Of a stretch of DNA of 40,576 bases, positions 1,721-32,244 are shown piece by piece. Numbering within the stretch: position 1 is the first letter of the stretch; every line of letters starts with the position of its first letter. Below the pieces are notes generated by a model. That model ran no database searches and was not told the DNA's origin. It saw only the letters and a program-made list of their open reading frames with translations. The position numbers were made by a program, and so were the translations under genes. The stretch comes from an uncultured Lentisphaerota bacterium (lineage in GTDB: Bacteria; Verrucomicrobiota; Lentisphaeria; Victivallales; GWF2-50-93), in the NCBI GenBank assembly GCA_903872565.1, contig CAIQLG010000102.1, forward strand, positions 1-40,576, written 5' to 3'.

Positions 1721-2782
1721 CTATTTTTGTTCATTGACGTAGTAGCGTTCGAGGTGATATTTGGAGAAGAAGATTTTCTTTTTAACTGGCTTCAGGCGTT
1801 TTGCGATTTTTTCGACAAGTTCCCTTGGTGCATTGATCTGGTCGATCTTGCAAAGTTCAATTATGAGTTCCCTTGGGTCAACGCAATAATGGTTGGAGAA
1901 TTCCCTTATGAGTGGCATATAGCTCGAATGGAAAAGGGCATACCCTGAAACAAGATCAATTGGGTTTAGACCCATTTGGACAAGCATCGGTTGGACTGTG
2001 TCAAAGCCAAGATCAAGAATCTTAAAAAGGTCTATTCCGTGTTCATAACCGGATCTTGAAAGTACCATTGCCATTTGTTCGGTCGAGGCGTTTCCAGCGC
2101 TTCTTCCAAGCCCCTGAAGAGACGTATCAACAAATTTGACTCCATTTTTAACTGCAATGAGCGAATTTGATACTGCAAGTCCGAGGTTGTTATGGGCATG
2201 GTATCCGAGTTCTACGTCACAATTGTCTTGTATGGCCTTTATATAGTTTTCGAGCTCACACGGCAACATTCCGCCAGCAGAATCCACAATATAGACCATA
2301 TCTACTCCGTAGGACTTCGAGATCTTTGTTTTTTCGGCAAGTTTTTTGGGACTTAGCGCATATGATTTCATATAGTTGGCACATACGAACATACCATATT
2401 TTTTCGCCTTTTTAATAAAATCCTTGCTCGGTTCAATCTCTGTTACATTTGTTCCCACCCTGACAAATTTCATTCCGCAATCGTGAGCTAAGTCGAGGTC
2501 GGAAAGCTTGGCAAAACCTGGAATGCAGAACATTCCTATTTTCGCATTTTTTACGCTCGGAACTGCGACCTTGAGGTATTCCTCATCGGTAGCGGCGGCA
2601 GCATATTCTCCTCCCTTGCGGTAGGCACCGAGTCCTTGACCGTGTCCGATTTCTATGAATTTGAGTCCGGCATCATCGAGTTTTTCGGCAAGATATGCGG
2701 TTTCCAGCATCGAAAATTGGAAGCGGTTCACATAGCTTCCATCCCGCAGAGTTGTTTCAAGAATTGTAATTTTTTTTGACAT
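1721..2782 (-). CDS. DRE-TIM metallolyase (HMGL-like / 4-hydroxy-2-oxovalerate aldolase-like)
   Basis: This 353-residue protein is a TIM-barrel aldolase of the HMGL-like family. The family signature TLRDGSYVN places the catalytic Arg-Asp at residues 13-14. The metal-binding HAHNN motif is at 195-199, followed by DTSLQGLGRSAGNA, typical of the glycine-rich strand that binds the oxoacid. Family members cleave or form C-C bonds next to a keto acid using a divalent metal. The length fits a single-domain aldolase without the long C-terminal regulatory domain of isopropylmalate synthase. No acetaldehyde dehydrogenase partner (as with DmpG/DmpF) is nearby. Its position among glycan genes suggests it makes or breaks a keto-acid precursor of a surface sugar, but that is inference. 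Confidence 0.8.
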   Translation of the reverse strand: MSKKITILETTLRDGSYVNRFQFSMLETAYLAEKLDDAGLKFIEIGHGQGLGAYRKGGEYAAAATDEEYLKVAVPSVKNAKIGMFCIPGFAKLSDLDLAHDCGMKFVRVGTNVTEIEPSKDFIKKAKKYGMFVCANYMKSYALSPKKLAEKTKISKSYGVDMVYIVDSAGGMLPCELENYIKAIQDNCDVELGYHAHNNLGLAVSNSLIAVKNGVKFVDTSLQGLGRSAGNASTEQMAMVLSRSGYEHGIDLFKILDLGFDTVQPMLVQMGLNPIDLVSGYALFHSSYMPLIREFSNHYCVDPRELIIELCKIDQINAPRELVEKIAKRLKPVKKKIFFSKYHLERYYVNEQK

Positions 2783-2847
2783 CCATAATTTCCTTTTGAT
2801 TGTATTTAAAGTAGAGCGGGCTATTCAGCCTGTTTTTTGAAGATTAC

Positions 2848-2975
2848 TTGTAATGCGTAAGTGTCTTCCGGCAAATGGCCTTTTTGGAGGGACGGCTTCC
2901 ACGCCGTCCGCTTGGGTCGGGGTGGAACCCGACCCTCCACCAATATCGGAAAAACATTAAACTGACGCATTACGA
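2848..2975. repeat. Nested inverted-repeat element (REP/MITE-like)
   Basis: A 128-bp intergenic element. The outer 17-bp arms (2848-2864 and 2959-2975) are inverted repeats matching at 14 positions, core GTAATGCGT / ACGCATTAC. Inside are two GC-rich hairpins. The first has a GGACGGC/GCCGTCC stem (2890-2896, 2903-2909) and loop TTCCAC. The second has a GGGTCGGG/CCCGACCC stem (2914-2921, 2928-2935) and loop GTGGAA. The two loops are exact reverse complements and the two hairpins are mirror copies bounded by TGGAGGG/CCCTCCA. It touches the end of the downstream-oriented M28-like gene. This organisation resembles paired REP (BIME) elements or a non-autonomous transposon. Confidence 0.8.
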
Positions 2976-4241
2976 TTATTTTTTCAGGAGGCCTTTTTCC
3001 TCGAGGATTTTGACAGTGTCAAGGAGGTCGCTGATGCAAAAACCAGTTTTTTCAGCAATGTCTACGAGAGAGTGTTGTCCATCCGAGAAATTAAGAATCG
3101 AGAGGACTTTTTTTATGTACTTACTTCCGTCCATCTGTGCGCCAAGAGTGGAGTAAAGTCCATATTTTGAGAGGAATGGTTCGCAAAATGGGTTTGTGTT
3201 CAAATATTTGAAGTCGGCTTCAAACGCCTCGATAATTTTTGTATAAATGTCGAAGGTTTGATTAAGGCCTTCTTCGGTTACAAAGTCGAGATTGTCCTGG
3301 GAGGAATGATATTTCGGAAGTCCGTAAAATGATCTCATAAGCGAGCCGGCCGGGATGTTGAAACCTGGAGAGGAGTATTGTCTTTCATCGCTACCTGGCA
3401 GGAAAAAGTCGTGCATGTGGTGTTTGAATCCACTATGCTTAAGAATATTTTCTGCAATTCTGTCAAGGCTGTGCGTTCCTTGTCTGGTTTTTTTATAGTT
3501 GAAATCTCCAGGGTCGCCAACGCAGGTAAGAACCATTCCGCAGAAGGTGCTTTTCTTCAACATCTCTCCGTATTTGCTCAGATATGCGATGGCACCGATG
3601 GTTTCAGGGACAAAGATAAATCTATAGCTGTAATAATTGTCTTTCCTATTCTTCAGATATTCATAAAGTTTTGTCGTCATCACTACCCCAGAAATGGAGT
3701 CGTCCGCCATTGACGGATGACAGACATAGCAGGAAAAGAAGATTTCCTTTTCAGTTTTTCCTTTTATGAATGCTTCGGCAAGCGTCAGAGAACCAGGCTT
3801 GAGGCTTGAATCAATGTGAACCTGATATTTCCCTTCCTTGAGTGTTTCAAACTGCCTGTGGCTCATGCAGAACCCCCAGCGTTTTTCATAGTAGCTTGTG
3901 CGGTATGGAATGGCATCCGGGCGTTCCGGATCGGTATAAATGTGTTTTTTCAGATCTTCAAGGGTTATTTCACCCGAATATGGAATGCTGTATCCTAGAA
4001 TATGCAGATTGTGTTCGGAAAAATCAACAATTTTATTTCCATTCCAATCTTTTATCCAGGCAGATTTTATATTCCACTCATCAGGAATTACCCAGTCGAA
4101 GCATTTTGTTCCGGAGGAAAATTCCTGTACTTCGAGTGGAATATGCTTTTTCAGAATTTCAAAAGTCTGTCGAACACCGTTTCCAGTTAAACTGCGGCAT
4201 ATTGGGAAGAGTTCTTTGAGAAGATCATACATTTTTATCAT
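2976..4241 (-). CDS. M28-like aminopeptidase-fold protein, DUF4910/DUF2172 type
   Basis: This 421-residue protein matches the three-part DUF4910 family found in O-antigen and capsule clusters: an N-terminal and interrupted domain (about 1-130), a zinc-peptidase-like core, and a C-terminal winged-helix-like tail (about 345-421). Candidate metal ligands of the M28 fold are visible: H175 in CHPSMADDSISG, D180/D181, E213 in VPETIGA, and H312 in YHSSQDN. Such proteins are believed to hydrolyse an amide bond on a sugar or sugar precursor; no substrate is known. The start is uncertain between residues 1 and 4. The stop codon lies against the terminal arm of the 128-bp repeat. It belongs to the minus-strand glycan operon. 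Confidence 0.75.
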   Translation of the reverse strand: MIKMYDLLKELFPICRSLTGNGVRQTFEILKKHIPLEVQEFSSGTKCFDWVIPDEWNIKSAWIKDWNGNKIVDFSEHNLHILGYSIPYSGEITLEDLKKHIYTDPERPDAIPYRTSYYEKRWGFCMSHRQFETLKEGKYQVHIDSSLKPGSLTLAEAFIKGKTEKEIFFSCYVCHPSMADDSISGVVMTTKLYEYLKNRKDNYYSYRFIFVPETIGAIAYLSKYGEMLKKSTFCGMVLTCVGDPGDFNYKKTRQGTHSLDRIAENILKHSGFKHHMHDFFLPGSDERQYSSPGFNIPAGSLMRSFYGLPKYHSSQDNLDFVTEEGLNQTFDIYTKIIEAFEADFKYLNTNPFCEPFLSKYGLYSTLGAQMDGSKYIKKVLSILNFSDGQHSLVDIAEKTGFCISDLLDTVKILEEKGLLKK

Positions 4242-32169: not shown

Positions 32170-32244
32170 TGGTAGCGGGGGTTGGAATCGAACCAACGGC
32201 CTTCAGGTTATGAGCCTGACGAGCTACCTCTGCTCCACCCCGCA
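32170..32244 (-). tRNA. Initiator tRNA-Met (anticodon CAT)
   Basis: A complete cloverleaf is read on the minus strand: acceptor TGCGGGG with CCCCGCT, D stem GAGC/GCTC, anticodon stem TCAGG/CCTGA with loop CTCATAA, variable loop AGGCC, T arm GTTGG-TTCGATT-CCAAC, then A and encoded CCA. The first acceptor pair is T against T, a mismatch expected of bacterial initiators, and the D arm is initiator-like. Two of the three G:C pairs of the usual initiator anticodon stem are kept, while the 29:41 pair is A:T. Confidence 0.93.

Follow-up and report, generated by a model that had tools for sequence, protein, structure and literature searches.

A short nested inverted repeat lies between two genes near the start of the 40,576-nt stretch of DNA from an uncultured Lentisphaerota bacterium analysed here (the window), and it raises the question of what kind of element this is and what would have moved it. 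The original prediction, made from the sequence, placed it at 2848-2975 with 17-bp outer arms around two hairpins and suggested a REP pair or small transposon moved in trans, perhaps by a Y1-type RAYT. The nested structure is present far beyond chance, with two occurrences of the hairpin pattern in the window compared to 0.05 expected, but its limits have to be redrawn to 2850-2973 (124 bp rather than 128 bp), with outer arms of 13 bp that are paired at 12/13 positions (14/17 if counted as 17 bp).

Anatomy and genomic setting

The element and its parts are arranged as follows:

2842..2849 (unstranded): left target duplication, GATTACTT, identical to the right copy at 7/8 positions; 8-bp duplications occur family-wide
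2850..2973 (unstranded): IS66-type MITE, 124 bp, a frame with terminal inverted repeats and target duplications and dozens of relatives in the genome
2850..2862 (plus strand): left terminal inverted repeat, GTAATGCGTAAGT, 12/13 against the right one; the consensus, GTAATGCGTCAGT, is common to the full-length IS66 element G000:C121:10417-13279
2886..2909 (plus strand): REP-like hairpin A, GGAG + GGACGGC(TTCCAC)GCCGTCC
2886..2938 (unstranded): REPIN-like cassette, with T|GGAG and CTCC|A as the exact points where homology between different frames is lost
2915..2938 (minus strand): REP-like hairpin B, in inverted orientation, read on this strand as GGAG + GGTCGGG(TTCCAC)CCCGACC
2961..2973 (minus strand): right terminal inverted repeat, ACTGACGCATTAC on the plus strand, an exact match to the consensus
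2974..2981 (unstranded): right target duplication, GATTATTT, within which the minus-strand gene 2976-4241 has its stop codon (2976-2978)

Both hairpins have perfect 7-bp stems and, as predicted, 6-nt loops that are exact complements (TTCCAC/GTGGAA), with a linker of 5 nt between them; on the plus strand, hairpin B reads GGTCGGG-GTGGAA-CCCGACC followed by CTCC. Folded as RNA, the element reaches -61.8 kcal/mol compared to a shuffled mean of -37.85 (z = -6.3), and none of 200 shuffles folded as well. The element occupies a 193-bp gap between two minus-strand genes, one at 2976-4241 encoding a peptidase-like protein of 421 aa (without an NCBIfam match) and one at 1721-2782 encoding a 4-hydroxy-2-oxovalerate aldolase-like protein. 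The 421-aa gene still ends in an intact stop codon; the MITE copy would have landed on this codon and preserved it, while separating the gene from its next same-strand neighbour. No intrinsic terminator (a GC-rich hairpin followed by a T run) was found in 2600-3200, and no Rfam family matched at the element. Elsewhere in the window, a tRNA gene (Rfam RF00005) is located at 32173-32244 on the minus strand.

The same locus was compared in relatives of the genome. In G006, the orthologous peptidase-like and aldolase genes share an overlap of 4 bp and the element is absent from their junction, and in G001 the peptidase-like gene has a different downstream neighbour. The G006 locus supports an insertion in the lineage of the window, as the arrangement in a diverged genus and not as an exact pre-insertion allele.

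IS66-type ends, target duplications and a resident transposon

Copies were counted with pattern and BLAST searches in the genome to which the window belongs, a fragmented MAG (6.56 Mb in 606 contigs, 93.6% complete, 5% contamination). The window element, which is short and lacks a transposase gene, has about 50 BLAST matches in this genome, and the outer arm consensus has 80 matches at ≤1 mismatch compared to 9 for the reversed control. One copy is also present in a relative from another genus of the same family, and a 60-bp core searched across 137 genomes of the order was present only in the own genome and one relative. Additionally, a search by end-sequence pattern recovered a MAG labelled Victivallis vadensis (DYRX01), which possesses IS66-type ends of the same sequence and one copy of the MITE with its REPIN; the TnpC protein, used as a query for named relatives, had no match among the genome contigs.

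Pairing of arms within 60-420 bp yielded 66 candidate frames in the own genome. The octamers flanking these frames agree at a mean of 5.17/8 positions, compared to 2.48 for shuffled pairings (maximum, 3.15 in 2000 shuffles), and the true mean is higher because the 66 include some pairings that arose by chance or overlap. Twelve frames match at 8/8 and sixteen at 7/8, such that 28/66 reach ≥7/8. For the window copy, the 7/8 match has a probability of ~0.0005 based on composition, and imperfect duplications of this kind suggest that many of the copies are not recent. Some duplications of 7/8 also flank frames with an extra unit of ~65 bp (TAACCTCGCC...GGCCTCAAAATGAGGCATTACAGC...GTGTAATATAGGAG) just inside one MITE end (L079, L085, L090, L148, and L005).

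On contig C121, two opposite arm matches bound an element of 2863 bp (C121:10417-13279); its inverted repeats measure ~35 bp, and the octamer AATTCAAT is perfectly duplicated at its flanks. It encodes a 500-aa IS66 transposase (NCBIfam NF033517, 198.5 bits with a cut-off of 180; PF03050, 111 bits) and a DUF6788 protein. A second IS66 gene, 85% identical and with the same end, is found on C385, where only one end is clear. The window element shares the terminal GTAATGCGTCAGT and the 8-bp duplications with these IS66-family insertion sequences, and one side of the MITE also has TTTTCCGGC; in contrast to them it carries no gene, and the common sequence is restricted to the outermost 13-23 bp rather than the whole inverted repeat. 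In Frankia, IS66 ends have been reported to begin with GTAAGCG and to produce 8-bp repeats (PMC11946415), and GTAATGCG agrees with that start if one base is inserted. The outer arms are assigned as IS66-type ends because the same ends close both the complete 2.9-kb IS66-family transposon and the IS66 elements in the Victivallis-labelled MAG.

Ends, duplications and copy number uphold the suggestion of a small non-autonomous transposon of a kind moved in trans. A single copy without homologues would have counted against the prediction, but the element has many copies and a homologue outside its own genus. The proposed Y1 RAYT mobiliser gives way, as both the outer ends and the 8-bp duplications match the resident IS66-family DDE transposon. 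Judged from sequence, mobilisation in trans by an IS66 DDE transposase, not by a Y1 RAYT, is best supported: an IS66-family derivative that has GTAATGCGTCAGT ends and no genes would have been spread through the genome by TnpC, an IS66-type DDE transposase that would act on double-stranded ends and leave 8-bp target duplications.

Interchangeable cores and their RAYT associations

Three core types (R1, R2, and R3) are found in one MITE frame. R1 is the type of the window, with stems GGACGGC/GGTCGGG, R2 has stems GGACGCG/GGCCACG, and R3 has GTAG heads and is mostly found outside of the MITE frame. After deduplication there are 55 cores of types R1 and R2, for 43 of which both MITE ends are recognisable. 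The R1 core is also present in a second palindromic frame (TACTAGAT...GCGGAAAGACTT; L020, L022, L023, and L029), the only other frame found. When the contexts are compared, homology begins and ends at T|GGAG...CTCC|A or T|GTAG...CTAC|A. The second frame, in the same four loci, reads TACTAGATAATCT...GCGGAAAGACTT...AGATTTGCC...CTAGTA, with no duplication recognised.

Several further sequences interrupt or adjoin the cores. The REP hexaloop is split at a single spot (TT^CCAC) by a small palindrome, e.g., CATGTCACGCCGTAGTTTGCAAGCGAACAAAGGCGG, in L071/L034 (C38:5294-5455), L074 (C114), L118:1151-1364 (C542), and L029 (C534); the split affects hairpin A, and L118 shows it in hairpin B too. In L014, L017, L027, L074, L098, and L126, a second unit of ~30 bp (TCGAAGATCCCGGGCGTTGGCGTCTCGGGA) lies where the loop of hairpin A meets its stem (GTGGAAG|CCGTCC), and a composite repeat, in which the tract GAACTTAACCGGCTACGCCGGGACTTA is repeated before a GTAG-headed REPIN, is present in L015, L086, L097, L111, and L121. 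From ~10070 in L109 (C564), an R1 core is cut short by sequence resembling the 5' end of a group II intron; this candidate was rejected, with no Rfam match and a 578-aa ORF on the other strand that encodes an unrelated transposase-like protein.

The window-type core fits the anatomy of a REPIN, with two inverted REPs that each consist of a 4-nt head (GGAG) and a hairpin, in line with the predicted REP pair. The genome has ten Y1_Tnp genes, and a RAYT gene on C305 (L172, G000:C305:1-1100; NF047646, 96.4 bits with a cut-off of 80), has GTAG-headed R3 units in arrays on both sides, with near-identical REPINs inside the IS66 MITE frame. Since R3 flanks this RAYT, the MITE frame carries a bona fide REPIN in at least one of its core types. 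The prediction had proposed a search for a RAYT with the matching terminal sequence, which succeeds for this other REPIN type and fails for the window-type REPs: none lie within ~1.5 kb of the ten Y1_Tnp genes of the own, incomplete MAG or of 25 from seven family relatives. No RAYT was found for R2, and R1 and R2 are called REPINs by anatomy only because no RAYT was found for either. Other Y1_Tnp genes have their own distinct GTAG- or GGAG-headed inverted hairpins (L067, L068, and L070, on C581, C38, and C410), and several RAYT-REP systems exist side by side in the genome. Compared to described REPIN/RAYT systems (PMC3116915, PMC2817692), the two inverted hairpins and their 4-nt heads are the same, and one core of the MITE frame likewise flanks a RAYT, whereas the window-type core has a GGAG head, is without a known RAYT and is almost always within a MITE.

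The two layers also differ in how they vary. Hairpin stems are paired in 90-95% of cells, and compensated changes are numerous between the stems of R1 and those of R2. Several R1 copies carry a double change from G-C to A-T in stem B (7 compensated cells compared to a shuffled mean of 1.9), possibly from one event. The outer arms are 68% paired and lack covariation, falling slightly under the shuffles. Based on these pairing and covariation results, the inner hairpins appear to be folded-strand structures and the outer arms independently decaying duplex ends.

Competing readings and the significance of a probable two-layer element

With a probability of roughly 0.87, the element is a two-layer mobile element, an IS66-type MITE that carries a REPIN-like cassette. 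The modularity of the inner layer is seen in its precise ends and its different frames; either RAYT-type single-strand transposition or recombination may have brought the cassette into MITE frames, after which it would have been multiplied along with the MITE as its cargo.

A reading in which the whole 128-bp unit is a REPIN or BIME moved only by a Y1 RAYT would account for the REP anatomy of the inner hairpins and is compatible with the ten Y1_Tnp genes and with the RAYT flanked by one core type of the MITE frame, but it leaves the IS66 ends and 8-bp duplications unexplained. It is very improbable, as the family-wide duplications largely refute it, the window-type REPs have no adjoining RAYT, and the outer arms fall below the shuffles without pair covariation, in keeping with ends that are recognised as duplex DNA. 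Selection for a kissing-loop or a single long cruciform, in RNA or single-stranded DNA, could draw on the strong fold and on loops that are exact complements in the consensus of both core families. However, compensated changes between loop A and loop B number 0 within R1 and 1 within R2 (shuffled mean, 1.7), and loop complementarity arises from the inverted order of two REPs having the same loop, such that the predicted kissing interaction finds no covariation support and selection of this kind is the most improbable of the explanations.

It is also conceivable, if rather unlikely, that the core is an ordinary internal part of the MITE and not a REPIN, with hairpins kept for a role in RNA (protection of mRNA 3' ends or attenuation) or for the action of TnpC. 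Most window-type and CCACG/ACGCG-type cores do occur inside the IS66 frame (the 43/55 with both ends), the window copy lies between two same-strand genes, and divergence is lower in the hairpins (0.03-0.07) than in the ends (0.11-0.15) and spacers (0.19-0.38), though for R1 the low hairpin divergence is partly ascertainment, as these copies were found by their core. Many R2 copies were found by their ends, and ascertainment does not easily explain their low hairpin divergence. Against an internal origin stand the R1 core in a second frame, the RAYT-linked core in the MITE frame and the breaks in homology at the 4-nt heads, as well as the lack of either an intrinsic terminator pattern or an Rfam family at the element. 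An RNA role for the window copy is possible.

Parts of this arrangement have been published, namely REP-containing MITEs and REP dimers within palindromes, and REPINs have already been compared with MITEs (PMC3116915). QMITE2 of Coxiella burnetii is, like the window element, a MITE containing a REP; it is described as having a GTAG REP that is a target for another transposon, as occurring in 3' untranslated and intergenic regions and as having duplications of 7-11 nt, and it differs in that the portion of that account consulted mentions no IS66 link and describes one GTAG REP instead of several interchangeable REP pairs (PMC5896051). In Anabaena variabilis GTAG-15 and H. neapolitanus CGTC-1, REP dimers occur inside longer palindromes (PMC3733652, section 7), and, as in the window element, the paired REPs lie in an outer palindrome not found without them; those outer palindromes were left unexplained, whereas here the frame is an IS66-type MITE (PMC3733652). 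Among the open-licence papers searched, an IS66-driven MITE with interchangeable REPINs was not found.

The two-layer element joins two classes of short repeats that are usually separate, the IS66-type MITE (DDE, with 8-bp duplications) and REPIN-like cassettes (HUH/Y1, without duplications), and for the outer frame a driver can now be named within the same genome, where the earlier REP-dimer palindromes had been unexplained. Such repeats have hardly been described in this phylum, and the relatives are Victivallis-labelled MAGs. As a more tentative extension of the two-layer reading, which we consider possible but doubtful, REPINs may use MITEs as vehicles, with RAYT-type single-strand transposition loading interchangeable cassettes into IS66 MITE frames, a second and unrelated DDE transposase amplifying them, and further small palindromes loaded in turn into the REP loops. 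If true, this would represent the spread of REPs without a RAYT and could explain the repeats of other bacteria in which REP dimers lie within a palindrome.
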